Of a DNA stretch of 64,000 nucleotides, positions 8,269-51,290 are shown piece after piece (position 1 is the stretch's first letter; every line of letters begins with the position of its first letter). The notes under the pieces are model-generated. The model saw only the letters and a program-made list of their open reading frames with translations. It did not search any database and was not told the origin of the DNA. The translations under genes and the position numbers were made by a program. Origin of the DNA: Prevotella melaninogenica (lineage in GTDB: Bacteria > Bacteroidota > Bacteroidia > Bacteroidales > Bacteroidaceae); the NCBI RefSeq assembly GCF_018128065.1, contig NZ_CP072360.1, positions 1,430,501 through 1,494,500 of the forward strand. The letters are read 5' to 3'.

Positions 8269-9306
8269 TTAGATTAACGGCATTCCCGCCTCTTCACATG
8301 CTCTTCTCATTTCATCTGGCCAGATACTTGCTTGTATCTCACCGATATGCGCTTTGTGCAACATTATCATACAAAGGCGGCTTTGACCGATACCACCACC
8401 AATACACAATGGTAATTTGTCTGAGAGCAACTGCTGATGGAAATAAAGCTGTTCGCGCTCTTCTTGCTTCTCTATTGTCAACTGTCGAAGCAAAACCGTC
8501 TTATCCACACGGATACCCATAGAAGAGAGTTCAATACTACGACCTAAGATAGGATACCAAACGAGGATATCTCCATTCAACCCCATCTTACCATCTTCTG
8601 CCACCGTAGACCAGTCATCGTAATCAGCAGCACGCCCATCGTGCTTCTCGCCATTACTTAACCGGCACCCTATGCCTTCAATAAACACGGCACCATACTC
8701 TTTACAAATCGCATCTTCGCGTTCTTTTGCTGTCATTGTAGGATACATATCCAACAGGTCTTGTGCATGAATAAAATGAATCGACTGTGGAAGGAAAGGT
8801 TTCAGCTGAGGATAAGACTCACAAGTAAGAAACTCTGTGCGGAGAATAGCTGCATAGATTCGTCGAACAACATTCTCTAAAAAAATACGTGTTCTGTCGT
8901 TTTCGGTGATGACAGCCTCCCAGTCCCACTGGTCAACATAAAGTGAGTGAAGATTATCCAGCTCCTCGTCAGCACGAATCGCATTCATATCGGTATAGAT
9001 ACCATAACCTGGTTGAATAGCATATTCAGCTAACGTTAGTCGCTTCCACTTTGCCAGCGAGTGTACAACTTCAGCCTCAGCTTCTCCTAAGTCCTTGATT
9101 GGAAAAGAAACAGGGCGCTCAACACCATTCAAATCATCATTAATACCTAAACCTTTCAGTACGAACAGCGGTGCCGTAACACGACTTAAACGTAGTTCGG
9201 TAGCTAAATTTTGTTGGAAGAATTCTTTTATCAGTTTGATTCCTTGCTCAGTCTGGCGTTTGCCAAGTACTGCTTTATATCCTTCTGGTTTTATCAGTTG
9301 GCTCAT
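8269..9306 (-). CDS. asnA: Aspartate--ammonia ligase (asparagine synthetase A)
   Basis: A 345-residue AsnA-type enzyme that makes asparagine from aspartate, ammonia and ATP. It is related to class II aminoacyl-tRNA synthetases. Family segments include the N-terminal KPEGYKAVLGKRQTEQGIKL, the FPIKDLG and VHSLAKWKR region, YTDMNAIRADEELDNLHSLY with VDQWDWE, and the C-terminal GGGIGQSRLCMIML, which resembles class II motif 3. Length is typical. The gene is monocistronic and convergent with aguAB. A -7 box on the minus strand at 9354-9361 gives a leader of about 40 bases. Confidence 0.96.
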   Translation of the reverse strand: MSQLIKPEGYKAVLGKRQTEQGIKLIKEFFQQNLATELRLSRVTAPLFVLKGLGINDDLNGVERPVSFPIKDLGEAEAEVVHSLAKWKRLTLAEYAIQPGYGIYTDMNAIRADEELDNLHSLYVDQWDWEAVITENDRTRIFLENVVRRIYAAILRTEFLTCESYPQLKPFLPQSIHFIHAQDLLDMYPTMTAKEREDAICKEYGAVFIEGIGCRLSNGEKHDGRAADYDDWSTVAEDGKMGLNGDILVWYPILGRSIELSSMGIRVDKTVLLRQLTIEKQEEREQLYFHQQLLSDKLPLCIGGGIGQSRLCMIMLHKAHIGEIQASIWPDEMRRACEEAGMPLI

Positions 9307-9353
9307 TATATTTTCTTTCTATTGATTTTTTTATTAATTATCTTTATTGCTCA

Positions 9354-9361
9354 CAAAGGTA
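9354..9361 (-). promoter_or_regulatory. asnA promoter -7 box
   Basis: The minus strand reads TACCTTTG about 48 bases upstream of the asnA start codon. Confidence 0.6.
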
Positions 9362-9647
9362 TATATTAATTATCAAACTGAAAAACAATAACTAACACAA
9401 TACTGCAAAATAACAGATTTCATCTACGTTTTACAACATTATGACAATTTAGAGAAGAGCCTTGGTTTATTAAGCTTATTTTTCTTTTCTGCTGATAAGA
9501 AGTTTTCCCCATCAGAAACTTCTCTCATTGCATATAGAGTTCATTAACACATAACAGATGTAAAAACGACCTTAGATGAAAGATATTAGTCAGCTTGCGA
9601 AACATTACTTCTATACCAGAAACTTTAACAAGAATGTTTACTGTTCG

Positions 9648-9679
9648 TTTGGAGTTATGCAAACTTTAATGTATCTTTG
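9648..9679 (+). promoter_or_regulatory. tRNA-Arg promoter (-33 TTTG, -7 TATCTTTG)
   Basis: TTTG at 9648-9651 and TATCTTTG at 9672-9679 are 20 bases apart, a full Bacteroidota promoter 11 bases before the mature tRNA 5' end. Confidence 0.7.
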
Positions 9680-9690
9680 CACAGTCATTA

Positions 9691-9764
9691 GGCTCCGTAG
9701 CTTAGCTGAATAGAGCGTCAGATTCCGGTTCTGAAGGTCTTGGGTTTGAATCCCAACGGAGTCA
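9691..9764 (+). tRNA. tRNA-Arg (anticodon CCG)
   Basis: A complete 74-nt cloverleaf. The acceptor arm is GGCTCCG/CGGAGTC with one G-U pair. The D stem is GCTT/GAGC. The anticodon stem TCAGA/TCTGA encloses loop TTCCGGT, giving anticodon CCG (reads CGG). The T stem TTGGG/CCCAA encloses TTTGAAT. CCA is not encoded. Its 3' half is the seed of the tandem repeats that follow. Confidence 0.96.
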
Positions 9765-10363
9765 CTAAAAGTGATGAACACCTTGATTACATTTAGCTGA
9801 ATGAGGTCAGAAAAATGTTCTGAAGGTCTTGGGTTTGAATCCCAACGGAGTCACTAAAAGTGATGAATACCTTGATTACATTTAGCTGAATGAGGTCAGA
9901 AAAATGTTCTGAAGGTCTTGGGTTTGAATCCCAACGGAGTCACTAAAAGTGATGAACACCTTGGTTACATTTAGCTGAATGAGGTCAGAAAAATGTTCTA
10001 AAGGTCTTGGGTTTGAATCCCAACGGAGTCACTAAAAGTGATGAACACCTTGATTACATTTAGCTGAATGAGGTCAGAAAAATGTTCTGAAGGTCTTGGG
10101 TTTGAATCCCAACGGAGTCACTAAAAGTGATGAATACCTTGATTACATTTAGCTGAATGAGGTCAGAAAAATGTTCTGAAGGTCTTGGGTTTGAATCCCA
10201 ACGGAGTCACTAAAAGTGATGAACACCTTGGTTACATTTAGCTGAATGAGGTCAGAAAAATGTTCTAAAGGTCTTGGGTTTGAATCCCAACGGAGTCACT
10301 AAAAGTGATGAACACCTTGATTACATTTAGCTGAATGAGGTCAGAAAAATGTTCTGAAGGTCT
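9728..10363 (+). repeat. Seven tandem 89-bp repeats derived from tRNA-Arg
   Basis: Beginning inside the tRNA anticodon arm, an 89-bp unit repeats seven times and ends with a 13-base partial copy. GGTCT recurs at 9736, 9825, 9914, 10003, 10092, 10181, 10270 and 10359. Each unit holds the exact tRNA 3' half (anticodon-stem 3' strand, T arm, acceptor 3' strand), a TCACT-AAA-AGTGA hairpin at the tRNA 3' end, and a degraded 5' half. That half keeps TTAGCTGAAT and GTCAGA but has loop AAAATGT and no acceptor 5' strand. Variants (AACACC/AATACC, GATTAC/GGTTAC, CTGAAGG/CTAAAGG) run A-B-C-A-B-C-A, a 267-bp higher-order repeat. Confidence 0.95.
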
Positions 10364-10398
10364 CAGAGAAAGAAAGAATAAGAATCACAGATTGTAAC

Positions 10399-10435
10399 AA
10401 AGGATGTATGGTTGTTTGCTATTCATCCTTTTTTT
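10399..10435 (+). terminator. Rho-independent terminator after the tRNA-Arg array
   Basis: AAAGGATG pairs with CATCCTTT around a 17-nt loop and is followed by more T residues. It would end a transcript that spans the tRNA and the entire repeat array. Confidence 0.75.
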
Positions 10436-10486
10436 GTTCAACCGAGTTAGCTTAAATATTGATTAATCCATCACAAAATTAAAAGT

Positions 10487-11653
10487 ATGCAGAAGAAAAA
10501 CAGAATTGGTCTACTCCCACGCGTTATCATCGCAATACTGCTTGGATTGTTTCTTGGCTATTATCTCCCAGACCCAGCAGTAAGAGCGTTTCTGACTTTT
10601 AACAGTATCTTCAGTCAGTTCCTCGGCTTTATGATACCACTGATCATCATTGGGCTGGTAACCCCTGCTATTGCAGGAATTGGCAAAGGAGCTGGCAAGT
10701 TACTGATAGTTACCGTAATCATTGCCTACGTTGATACTATCTTAGCAGGTGGATTGTCATACGGAGCAGGTACGTGGCTCTTCCCATCTATGATTGCCTC
10801 TACAGGAGGAAGTATGCCACAAATTGATAAAGCTACCGAACTGGCACCTTATTTTACAATCAATATCCCTGCTATGGTTGACGTAATGAGCAGTTTGGTA
10901 TTCTCATTCATTGCAGGGCTGAGTATTGCACACTATGGTTTGCGCACTATGGAGAACCTCTTTAATGAGTTTAAAACCATAATTGAGAAGGTTATTGAGA
11001 AGGCTATTATCCCTCTCCTACCGCTTTACATCTTTGGTGTATTCCTTAGCATGACCCATAATGGGCAGGCAAGACAGGTGCTTTTAGTATTCTCACAGAT
11101 AATCATTGTCATCCTCGTTCTGCATGTGCTCATCCTTATCTATGAATTCTGCATTGCAGGTGCTATCGTTAAGCGCAATCCTTTCAGACTACTCTGGAAT
11201 ATGTTGCCCGCTTATCTGACAGCATTAGGTACAAGTTCATCCGCAGCAACAATCCCTGTAACGCTGAAGCAGACAGAAAAGAACAATGTAAACAATGAGG
11301 TGGCTGGCTTTGTTGTACCTCTTTGTGCTACTATCCATCTTAGCGGAAGTGCTATGAAGATTACGGCTTGTGCATTGACTATCTGTCTATTGACAGGCTT
11401 ACCACACGACCCAGGGTTATTCATTTACTTTATTCTTATGCTCTCTATCATTATGGTAGCAGCCCCTGGCGTCCCTGGTGGTGCGATTATGGCAGCCTTA
11501 GCTCCACTATCAAGCATCTTAGGATTTAACCAAGAGGAACAGGCTTTGATGATAGCATTGTACATTGCAATGGATAGTTTTGGTACTGCTTGCAACGTGA
11601 CTGGTGATGGAGCTATTGCCATTGTTATTAATAAATTCTTTGGTAAGAAATAG
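10487..11653 (+). CDS. Dicarboxylate/amino acid:cation symporter
   Basis: A 388-residue inner-membrane transporter of the dicarboxylate/glutamate symporter family (SDF, DAACS), which imports acidic or neutral amino acids or C4-dicarboxylates with Na+ or H+. It has many hydrophobic helices. The serine-rich re-entrant loop TALGTSSSAATIPVTLK and the late GTACNVTGDGAIAIVINK region form the substrate and cation sites in this family. Length is near normal. Substrate cannot be fixed from sequence; a serine/threonine or glutamate/aspartate carrier is possible. It follows the tRNA-Arg array and its terminator. Confidence 0.9.
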   Translation: MQKKNRIGLLPRVIIAILLGLFLGYYLPDPAVRAFLTFNSIFSQFLGFMIPLIIIGLVTPAIAGIGKGAGKLLIVTVIIAYVDTILAGGLSYGAGTWLFPSMIASTGGSMPQIDKATELAPYFTINIPAMVDVMSSLVFSFIAGLSIAHYGLRTMENLFNEFKTIIEKVIEKAIIPLLPLYIFGVFLSMTHNGQARQVLLVFSQIIIVILVLHVLILIYEFCIAGAIVKRNPFRLLWNMLPAYLTALGTSSSAATIPVTLKQTEKNNVNNEVAGFVVPLCATIHLSGSAMKITACALTICLLTGLPHDPGLFIYFILMLSIIMVAAPGVPGGAIMAALAPLSSILGFNQEEQALMIALYIAMDSFGTACNVTGDGAIAIVINKFFGKK

Positions 11654-11828: not shown

Positions 11829-13052
11829 ATGGAAATAGTAGAAAGATTTATTAACTACACCAAGTTTGACACACAGTCAGCTGAAGACTCAGAGACAGTG
11901 CCAAGTACATCGAAACAACTTATCTTTGCAAAATACCTCAAGGAGGAACTTGAACGTGAAGGGCTGAAAGATGTTGAAATGGACGAGATGGGCTATATCT
12001 ATGCCACTCTCCCTGCAAACACTAAGAAGAAGATTCCAACAATAGGTTTCATTTCTCATTATGACACTGCACTTGATGCAAGTGGAGCGAATGTCAATGC
12101 CCGTATCGTAAAGAATTACGATGGTGGTGACATACAGTTGAATCCTAATATGGTTAGCTCACCTCGAATGTTTCCTGAGCTTTTAGAGCATAAGGGAGAA
12201 GACCTCATCGTAACAGATGGCACGACTCTTTTGGGTGCAGATGATAAGGCAGGTATAGCTGAAATCGTACAGGCTATGTGCTTCCTCCGCGATCATGACG
12301 AGATAAAGCATGGTGATATTCGTATCGCTTTCAACCCAGACGAAGAGATTGGTATGGGAGCTCATCACTTCGATGTTGAGAAGTTCGGTTGTGAATGGGG
12401 TTATACCATTGATGGTGGCGATCTTGGAGAGCTTGAATATGAGAACTTCAACGCTGCTGGTGCCAAAGTTCTTATCCATGGTGTAAGCGTTCATACAGGT
12501 TATGCTAAGGGTAAGATGATCAACGCAAGTCGTTTAGCATGTGAATTCAATAATATGATTCCTGCAACAGAGATACCTGAAGAGACTGAAGGGTATCAAG
12601 GATTCTATCACCTTACCAGTATAGAAAGCCGCTGTGAGGAAGCAAAGCTCAGCTATATTATTCGTGATCATGATCGTGAACACTTTGAAGATCGTAAACG
12701 TTTCATGGAGAACTGCGTGAAGCAGATGAATGAAAAGTACGGTGAAGGAACTGTTGAGTTGAAGATGAACGACCAGTACTATAACATGAAAGAGAAAATC
12801 GATCCTAACATGCACGTTATCGAGTTAGTTCTCCGTGCTATGCATCAAGCAAACGTCGCTCCAAAGGTGCAGCCTATTCGTGGCGGTACAGATGGTGCAC
12901 AACTATCTTTCAAGGGTCTTCCTTGCCCTAACATCTTTGCTGGTGGCGTAAACTTCCATGGACCTTACGAGTTTGTTTCAGTCCAGGTAATGGAAAAAGC
13001 CATGCAGGTTATCATTAATATCTGTCGACTTACGGAAGAGTTTAATGATTGA
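11829..13052 (+). CDS. pepT: Peptidase T (tripeptide aminopeptidase)
   Basis: A 407-residue M20-family zinc peptidase that removes N-terminal residues from tripeptides. The dinuclear zinc motifs are present: [14 protein letters not shown] (His, Asp), [14 protein letters not shown] (bridging Asp), and [14 protein letters not shown] (catalytic Glu and zinc Glu). A dimerisation domain follows (ending near [12 protein letters not shown]), and the catalytic domain closes with [13 protein letters not shown] and [17 protein letters not shown]. Cytoplasmic, no signal peptide. It is a single gene with its own promoter and a strong terminator at 13088-13142. Confidence 0.95.
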
Positions 13053-20553: not shown

Positions 20554-20711
<158 letters not shown>

Positions 20712-47775: not shown

Positions 47776-47866
47776 CAGTCTGATTCAGTGGAAACAGCAG
47801 AGGATAAACGGGAAAATAAGGATGGATAACACCGCCTTTAACCTCTAAAATCCTCATTGTACTATG

Positions 47867-48263
47867 GGCTTGTTTGGATTTGACGGCAAGACGAGATGGT
47901 ACGTAAGCACGCGGAGCATCGTTGACTGGCTCCTAAATCTCAGTTATCGAAAAATTAATTGGCGAAAACAATTACGCTCTCGCTGCCTAACCGAAGTACA
48001 GTAGGTTACTGGCTTTATCCGACTATTAGATAGTTGGACGAGACATCGCTCCGAGGATGTTGTTCCGAATCCAGAGAGTAAGCGATGCAGGTTCAATCGG
48101 AAATAGTCAGTGTATGCCTCGCTGCACTGATGAAAATTTAGAGGATAAGATGTCGGTTGGTGGTCCAGGTCTTGCCGACATACGAAAATCGAAGGCTGGA
48201 ATAAACGTGTAGAAAGCGTATGGTTTCCTTGTGCGGACGTGGGTTCGACTCCCACCAGGTCCA
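47867..48263 (+). ncRNA. ssrA: Transfer-messenger RNA (tmRNA)
   Basis: A one-piece tmRNA that rescues stalled ribosomes. The 5' end GGGCTTG pairs with CAGGTCC at the 3' end (two G-U pairs), and the T arm GTGGG-TTCGACT-CCCAC precedes it. The tag frame begins at GGC (47961) and reads Gly-Glu-Asn-Asn-Tyr-Ala-Leu-Ala-Ala with stop TAA (47988-47990). The 3' CCA is not encoded. A terminator follows at 48301-48341. Confidence 0.95.
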
Positions 48264-48300
48264 CTCTTATACTCTCAACAGGGGATATGAAAAGATTCGA

Positions 48301-48341
48301 AAAGAGGCAGCATTAAAGCATTTTTGATACTGCCTCTTTAT
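48301..48341 (+). terminator. tmRNA terminator
   Basis: AAAGAGGCAG and CTGCCTCTTT form a perfect 10-bp stem, followed by TTTATTG. Confidence 0.75.
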
Positions 48342-48755
48342 TGTATCTCTGCCAAGCTAATACACATAAAAGAACCACATCCCTCTTCTAAACCGAGAAA
48401 TTCCGAAGAAGCAATTTCCACAAAGACATGCTTTCGCTCGAATCTATGCATTAATAAGTATAGGTGTTTACTGCTACAAACCCTAAGAAAAGTGCTGTTA
48501 GCTATGACCACAAGAAAGCTCTATCTGTCTTTCAATTGACTTCATGATTACATTTTTCTCGTCTTTTAAGTCATATTTTACTCGACAAAAGAACAATCTA
48601 TTAAAGTTTAATCCCAATCTTACAAGTAGTTATAACCGTATCACCAAATAGTCTCTTACTTACAACTGACAATAAAAAAAGAAATAACACCTTATCGAAA
48701 TATTAAAGAAGTTTAAAATACACTTTATGGTCGCTTTATTGTAAAACTAAAATCC
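48342..48755. other. Intergenic region without recognised genes
   Basis: About 415 bases between the tmRNA terminator and the tRNA-Ser promoter. A short rightward frame (48324-48539) has no recognisable content. Nothing else is seen. Confidence 0.5.
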
Positions 48756-48763
48756 TATTTTTG
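48756..48763 (+). promoter_or_regulatory. tRNA-Ser promoter -7 box
   Basis: TATTTTTG lies 51 bases before the mature tRNA-Ser. Confidence 0.5.
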
Positions 48764-48814
48764 CAAACTAATTTGAGTCCAATATATAAACGATATATTT
48801 TGGAGGGCACTCAA

Positions 48815-48902
48815 GGAAAGATGCTCGAGTGGTTGAAGAGGCACGCCTGGAAAGCGTGTATACCCCTAAAGGGTATCGGGGGTTCGAATCCCCCTCTTTC
48901 CG
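48815..48902 (+). tRNA. tRNA-Ser (anticodon GGA)
   Basis: An 88-nt class II tRNA. Acceptor GGAAAGA/TCTTTCC pairs perfectly. The anticodon stem CACGC/GCGTG encloses CTGGAAA, giving anticodon GGA (reads TCC/TCT). A long variable arm (TATACCCCTAAAGGGTATC) is present, as expected for serine. T arm GGGGG-TTCGAAT-CCCCC. Confidence 0.95.
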
Positions 48903-49030
48903 CGAGGGAGGTGTAGAACAATGGGTTACGTGGTTTGCACCTTTTTTTATCTCCTTAAACAGAAGGAAAGCACACGAACAATCACAAACTTTCTCTCCAA
49001 CGTACAACACGTATTTTTTCTTTCTGTTAC

Positions 49031-51119: not shown

Positions 51120-51290
51120 TAACGGAGTTGACAAGTAGGCGAGTAGACAAGTTTGTAGTAGATGAGTTAACAAGTTGCTTGTAAAGACGGGGTATATAGA
51201 AGACAAAGTAACAGAGTTAACAAGTGGACGAGTTAACAAGTTGCTTGCGAGAACAGGGTACATAGAAGACATAGTAACAGGAGGTGGGGG
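51120..51290. repeat. ACAAGT/ACGAGT short repeats with a 66-bp direct duplication
   Basis: Degenerate units (GAGTTGACAAGTA, GAGTAGACAAGTT, GAGTTAACAAGTT) fill the spacer. A longer block starting GAGTTAACAAGTTGCTTG at 51164 recurs at 51230. Confidence 0.75.

Follow-up and report, generated by a model that had tools for sequence, protein, structure and literature searches.

A tandem array of tRNA-derived repeats behind tRNA-Arg(CCG) in Prevotella, with a motif conserved between species and a likeness in build to E. coli tRNA-linked repeats

In the window, which is the whole 64,000-nucleotide stretch of Prevotella melaninogenica DNA analysed here, a tRNA-Arg(CCG) gene is followed by a run of short repeats made from parts of that tRNA. 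The locus raises the question of whether these repeats are decaying copies of the tRNA or units that are kept for some role. The genome measures 3.34 Mb in two contigs, and the window sits on the larger one. Judged by the transporter gene downstream of the array, Prevotella denticola, P. veroralis and P. vespertina are the named relatives, at 88-89% identity. The features of the locus are as follows.

8269..9306, minus strand: asnA, aspartate-ammonia ligase, upstream neighbour (NCBIfam TIGR00669, equivalog, above cut-off)
9648..9679, plus strand: promoter-like site TTTG-N20-TATCTTTG (pattern search)
9691..9765, plus strand: tRNA-Arg, anticodon CCG (ARAGORN; Rfam RF00005)
9766..9854, plus strand: unit 1, variant A
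9789..9826, plus strand: conserved 38-bp motif I of unit 1 (ACATTTAGC...GAAGG), found again at 89-bp intervals in the remaining units (six species compared, 5 of 38 columns variable)
9855..9943, plus strand: unit 2, variant B
9944..10032, plus strand: unit 3, variant C
10033..10121, plus strand: unit 4, variant A
10122..10210, plus strand: unit 5, variant B
10211..10299, plus strand: unit 6, variant C
10300..10363, plus strand: unit 7, cut short after GAAGGTCT; matches variant A over the part present
about 10399..10436, plus strand: terminator-like hairpin with T-run, common to relatives (fold; relatives' loci)
10487..11653, plus strand: dicarboxylate symporter family protein, downstream neighbour (Pfam SDF, above cut-off)
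11829-13052: pepT, next after the dicarboxylate symporter family gene

Tandem Repeats Finder placed the array at 9728-10363 with a period of 89, 7.1 copies, 97% matches and a score of 1230, the highest of its 14 rows for the window. The motif beginning with TAGC starts at 9794, 9883, 9972, 10061, 10150, 10239 and 10328, with a spacing of exactly 89, and the variant sites order the units as A-B-C-A-B-C-A, which indicates that a three-unit block of 267 bp was duplicated. Motif starts and variant sites thus bear out the 89-bp spacing and the 267-bp higher-order block proposed in an initial annotation of this DNA. That annotation had also counted seven units and assigned an intact tRNA 3' half to every one of them. 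Six units are complete, each ending in 33 or 39 contiguous nucleotides identical to the tRNA 3' end plus the next base, but the seventh stops at 10363 and has no copy of the tRNA 3' end. The units read AAAATGT at the position of the anticodon loop, and in units 3 and 6 the anticodon-stem part has a single change; the 5' part of the unit is itself derived from the tRNA body. In the array region ARAGORN and Rfam found one tRNA only (59.4 bits with the Rfam tRNA model at 9691-9765) and no complete cloverleaf in the array copies, which rules out tandem tRNA genes. Elsewhere in the window genome the sole other match to the unit lies in a second tRNA-Arg gene, with anticodon TCT. A general genomic repeat was rejected on this ground, and because motif I occurred in the genomes of the genus only at the loci described below. 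The array, the order of its units and its place behind the tRNA are established.

The initial annotation placed a promoter before the tRNA and a terminator behind the array. TTTG-N20-TATCTTTG at 9648-9679 fits the consensus of a Bacteroidota-type promoter. The broader pattern TTTG-N19-21-TANNTTTG occurs 11 times in the window where 1.18 matches would be expected, and this excess makes it a useful promoter marker in the window genome. The terminator hairpin is seen in the fold and in the loci of relatives, but a simple scan of 9300-10600 returned no terminator-like and no sigma-70-like site and thus missed the hairpin at 10399-10436 too. Because they lie between the tRNA promoter and the terminator, the window units are predicted to be transcribed together with the tRNA. 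In the clade of the window the units precede the shared terminator; in G016, G200 and G204 the first unit is preceded by a terminator, with the motif beginning right after the T-run, so that co-transcription of the whole array cannot be the general rule. Over 60-80 bp ahead of the tRNA (window 9606-9690), G146, G348, G310 and G583 look strongly alike, and this likeness exceeds what a promoter core alone would need.

The 5' half of the unit had been described as decayed. A 22-mer from this half was sought with up to two mismatches in 398 genomes of the genus and was present in nine (G000, G016, G039, G132, G146, G200, G204, G310 and G348), while the same 22-mer written backwards was found in one of the 398 (G258) and in none of the nine. 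A sequence-only profile built from 14 units detected 10 of the 398, adding G379, and 4 of 301 genomes drawn from 30 genera of the family, all four in the genus of the window, adding G583; the two draws overlap. Both searches combined give motif I in 11 species genomes. Reading of the loci showed an intact tRNA-Arg(CCG) no more than about 150 nt ahead of the motif in 9 of the 11. The motif of G132 follows a displaced tRNA 3' half, and that of G379 lies in a repeat in which the contigs break.

No part of the unit is better conserved than motif I. Among eight genomes, 0-3 bases of a 23-mer differ, against 0.16-0.75 for the fourfold sites of asnA. With one unit taken from each of six species, 5 of 38 columns are variable in the motif, 19 of 23 in the spacer and 11 of 31 in the 3' half, and column permutation gave p = 0.0001 against all columns and p = 0.026 against the 3' half alone, an estimate that takes in recognisable copies only. 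In G310 and G039 the motif is kept despite a degraded 3' half. Plain decay of tRNA copies was rejected on the asnA and column comparisons, and the 'decayed' half has to be given up as a description. Conservation of the motif between species is evident from these alignments; it points to constraint or to transfer between species and falls short of proof of function.

One window unit folds with a z of -2.29, matched by 3 of 200 shuffles, and the unit taken in another register reaches -1.39; for units of G016 and G200, shuffled sequences did equally well. The whole array has a z of -7.69 (20 shuffles), a value inflated by its repetition. In motif I no pair was changed on both sides (0 of 13 and 0 of 14 in two alignments); an apparent compensation in an outer stem of G310 proved to be a column shift in the alignment and was excluded from the count. 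The conservation of motif I thus appears to be one of sequence, and not demonstrably one of RNA structure. Fourteen tails with the hairpin motifs termed types III and IV, described below, share a consensus of 26 pairs, 15 of which are changed on both sides, all in the terminator hairpin. These two-sided changes show that the terminators are maintained there.

Presence of the motif partly follows relatedness. Among the 398 genomes, those with asnA of at least 88% identity all carry it (G146, G348, G310, G379 and, with a split frame, G132), the next by asnA identity (G124, 86%) is without it, and G583 has it at 91%. P. denticola has an asnA of 88.7% identity and the tRNA at the same locus, but the motif is absent. 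The asnA genes of G016, G200 and G204 are distant (77-80%), and the asnA search gave no match in G039. Relatives hold one to four recognisable units per locus, with one copy each in G310, G016 and G039. The 3' end of the unit tracks the acceptor stem of the species itself, reading CGGAGTC or CGGGATC. In the window, G310, G132, G146, G348, G583 and P. denticola, the last and often worn copy of the tRNA end is followed by AGATTGT and the shared terminator. The extra sequence thus sits between the tRNA and this common flank. In G016 the unit and a trailer are duplicated together, and the trailers behind the tRNA and behind the unit are nearly alike; the trailer itself is also duplicated in G035.

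In G132 the intact tRNA (C1:840071-840144) is separated by about 56 kb from a displaced 3' half (783904-783945), and behind the tRNA lies a gene for a tyrosine-recombinase-type integrase (Pfam Phage_integrase, with SAM-like and arm-binding domains). The stretch C1:783904-840144 (L185, L216) is an integrated element, it sits in the true tRNA, and tRNA-Arg(CCG) serves as an integration site. Like an attachment-site remnant, the array repeats the tRNA 3' end downstream of the gene. The displaced copy of G132, however, begins with the anticodon loop and is some 56 kb off, neither of which applies to the array units. Cores of such elements start at the anticodon loop TTCCGGT in G075 and in three of four viral-contig hits, the fourth containing a whole tRNA. 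Against reading the array as an attachment-site remnant stand the absence of this crossover start, where the units read AAAATGT, and the absence of an element or integrase gene between tRNA and copy, for which the 89-bp units have no room. Together, the missing TTCCGGT loop in the units and the position of the G132 element in the true tRNA argue against such elements as the source of motif I, although a different element, since lost, may have supplied it. Viral sequences gave the same indication. The exact 22-mer of motif I occurred in no viral contig, and a 16-mer of it gave 57 stretches, none of them followed by a tRNA-like 3' half on reading. Further searches for a phage-borne motif gave 13, 7 and 11 stretches, likewise without a tRNA-like 3' half on reading, and another gave none. 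The single match in the phage collection, at 77.5% identity, covers the tRNA only. A phage-borne motif was rejected on the 22-mer, 16-mer and phage-collection results.

Other tails of the same build, with different 5' motifs, were found at arginine tRNAs. CCCCRACCAAARCGC followed by an intact or worn copy of the tRNA end stands behind tRNA-Arg(TCT) in G014, G204, G206, G047, G011, G200, G270 and G229. The pattern of this TCT type matched in 23 of 299 genomes, 8 times behind tRNA-Arg(TCT), 14 times elsewhere, and in G085 at a contig start without the tRNA; the backwards control matched once each in a similar number of genomes. In one such locus (L212, G204 C10:27700-28900), five units of about 88-110 bp come after tRNA-Arg(TCT), and every one of them has a terminator, the motif CCCCGACCAAAACGC and a copy of the tRNA 3' end. 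Tails were also surveyed in 29 loci and 60 hand-picked stretches, which yielded 85 tRNA tails of at least 150 nt. Exact sub-patterns placed the hairpin motifs III/IV in 11 of the 61 surveyed tails behind tRNA-Arg(CCG); G007 has one further tail of these types, found by reading, and G317 one outside the survey. Type IV tails occur at tRNA-Arg(CCG) in G019, G027, G094 and others, and at tRNA-Arg(ACG) in a single genome, G204, with a 3' end that fits the local tRNA. The hairpin-B pattern of types III/IV is present once each in G022, G055 and G204 and absent in G009. Unit 2 of G009 resembles unit 1 of G022 and G055, and unit 2 of G019 resembles unit 1 of G009, an order that would fit stacking or loss from an ancestral array alike. 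The tRNA-Arg(CCG) tail of G022 (L320) contains a tandem repeat of about 31 bp, CGACGAAGTCAATCCCAACGGGACTCCAAAT, a second scale of tRNA-end repetition.

Among the 85, 5 of the 61 Arg(CCG) tails held a strict copy of the last 14 nt of the tRNA; none of the 18 Arg(ACG) tails and none of the 6 tails of other tRNAs did. Nor did any of 4250 shuffled tails, or any of the 85 when reversed or reverse-complemented. In loci that had partly been fetched by motif, such a copy was present in 12 of 64 Arg(CCG), 5 of 9 Arg(TCT), 2 of 10 Arg(ACG) (one locus being counted twice) and 0 of 33 others. Among the tRNAs sampled, such tails were seen at arginine tRNAs only, the other tRNAs being thinly sampled; the other tRNAs read in the window genome had no such tail.

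The initial annotation compared the array with the repeats behind E. coli tyrT. According to PMC8144298, 22 tRNA-linked repeats (TLRs) lie at ten loci of E. coli K-12, one to five at each. They follow the RNA gene closely in tRNA and rRNA operons, and their final 18-19 bp match the 3' end of the upstream tRNA or rRNA exactly. The paper dates the first description of TLRs to 1978 and states that no function was known for them prior to its own work. The same text states that a starvation phenotype of the rtT RNA was later retracted, so that the role of rtT is weaker than the initial annotation implied. It describes RrA, RrB and RrF as TLR small RNAs that belong to three E. coli rRNA operons, where they lie between two terminators; they are transcribed and processed and bind Hfq and CsrA, and the authors propose the repeat at the end of RrB as an RNase E signal. 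PMC4986893 and PMC2965389 also treat rtT, and older works cited in this literature are Rudd 1999 and Bosl and Kersten 1991, 1994.

The comparison stands in build and fails in sequence. In both cases, tandem units lie directly behind a tRNA gene and end in the 3' end of that tRNA. The E. coli K-12 tyrV tail has three 178-bp units, with the 19 terminal nt of the tRNA at the end of each, whereas the window has six complete units of 89 bp with 33 or 39 nt, and one truncated unit, slightly above the one to five of E. coli. The array lies directly behind its RNA gene, and 3' identity to the tRNA exceeds the 18-19 bp of the TLRs in six units and is lacking in unit 7. Several Prevotella III/IV copies start at about the same T-loop position as the tyrV copies, AATCC. 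In the tyrV fold a strand within each unit pairs with the copied tRNA end. No sequence homology was found as judged through the Rfam RtT model (RF00391) only, which gave four hits in the E. coli locus (L384), none in 16 Prevotella loci, and none in window 9600-10480 at E up to 10. The window array also differs in that its 5' part stems from the tRNA body, and the Prevotella tails differ in being found, as sampled, at tRNA-Arg(CCG), (TCT) and (ACG) only. RrA, RrB and RrF share with G016, G200, G204 and types III/IV a repeated 3' end of the upstream RNA behind or between terminators, but they follow 5S rRNA. The Prevotella arrays are therefore built like TLRs, with no relationship to them found through the RtT model. 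A search of the open-licence literature found no report of such repeats in Prevotella, which is a weak negative. The array is confirmed and unusual, of a kind known from E. coli; its conservation is what the initial annotation had missed.

We tentatively prefer the reading that the array is tRNA-linked-repeat-like, co-transcribed with the tRNA, with the copied 3' ends as signals that release trailer RNAs. The first step would have been a duplication, in a common ancestor of several Prevotella lineages, that placed a 5'-truncated part of tRNA-Arg(CCG) and its trailer behind the tRNA. Unequal recombination would later have multiplied the unit, in the window by doubling the three-unit block. The units would be transcribed together with the tRNA from its promoter. 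Each complete unit would end in the copied T-arm and 3' acceptor strand of the tRNA, which might act as an extra 3'-processing or stability signal, by analogy with what the authors of PMC8144298 suggest for RrB. Processing might then release short trailer RNAs bearing the conserved 5' motif, and discrete array RNAs would be expected to end at the repeated CGGAGTCA. The duplication origin, the transcription, the processing and any role of a released RNA are what we infer; the order of the array, the kept motif, the joint duplication of unit and trailer in G016, the build of the tyrV tail and the terminator stems of types III/IV point this way, and the lack of motif I covariation, the weak folds, the rarity (10 of 398), the absence in P. 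denticola and the terminator ahead of the first unit in G016, G200 and G204 count against it.

The units could instead be functionless tandem duplicates, with a 3' half kept tRNA-like by recombination with the tRNA and a motif that seems conserved because near-identical copies are the ones recognised, or because it was transferred between species. A unit end that follows the acceptor stem of its own species would be expected of such a relic, as would patchy presence across genomes, a motif without covariation and a recent block duplication in the window array. However, a motif unlike the tRNA cannot be maintained through recombination with it, and this motif is kept at an asnA fourfold difference of about 0.7 beside unconserved spacers, and also where the 3' half is degraded. 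We consider such a neutral origin somewhat unlikely. That the units are scars or miniature derivatives of elements integrating at tRNA-Arg, each an element end with a displaced tRNA 3' end and stacked by repeated integration, is quite unlikely. The integrated element of G132 shows the site to be used, the units sit between the tRNA and the flank common to relatives, and the likeness among units of G009, G022, G055 and G019 is as from stacking, though loss from an ancestral array fits too; the type IV tails at both tRNA-Arg(ACG) and tRNA-Arg(CCG), fitted to the local tRNA, keep this explanation alive. On the other side stand the TTCCGGT start of real element cores, absent from the units, the viral searches for motif I, the size of the units (66-116 bp, with no gene) and the duplicated trailers of G016 and G035, which fit plain tandem duplication.

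Several copies of T-arm and 3' acceptor strand in one predicted transcript might also titrate tRNA-processing enzymes or another tRNA-binding factor, as a sponge or decoy. The copies lack the 5' acceptor strand and the anticodon loop, without which ordinary tRNA enzymes are expected to bind poorly, and G310, G016 and G039 have only one recognisable copy each, so that this role is very improbable. Beyond the tRNA-linked-repeat-like reading of the window array, the tails might together be a TLR family of Prevotella's own at arginine tRNAs, selected, with independent 5' motifs I-IV joined to the same T-arm and 3' acceptor strand and often with their own terminator. We regard this wider proposal as unlikely. 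If true, this family and the E. coli TLRs would be convergent counterparts, and a second 3' end on a tRNA transcript would be a general route to small RNAs coupled to tRNA synthesis. In an unrelated set from another phylum, with the same build and a different sequence, the common features could show what TLRs are for, and species with one to seven units, together with relatives that have none, would be a ready comparative series.

Three further features were noted in the window. A tmRNA gene with the tag GENNYALAA, followed by tRNA-Ser(GGA), lies at 47866-48903. Tandem Repeats Finder also reported a run of 27.5 AC dinucleotides at 20646-20700 and a 66-bp repeat of 1.9 copies at 51157-51280.
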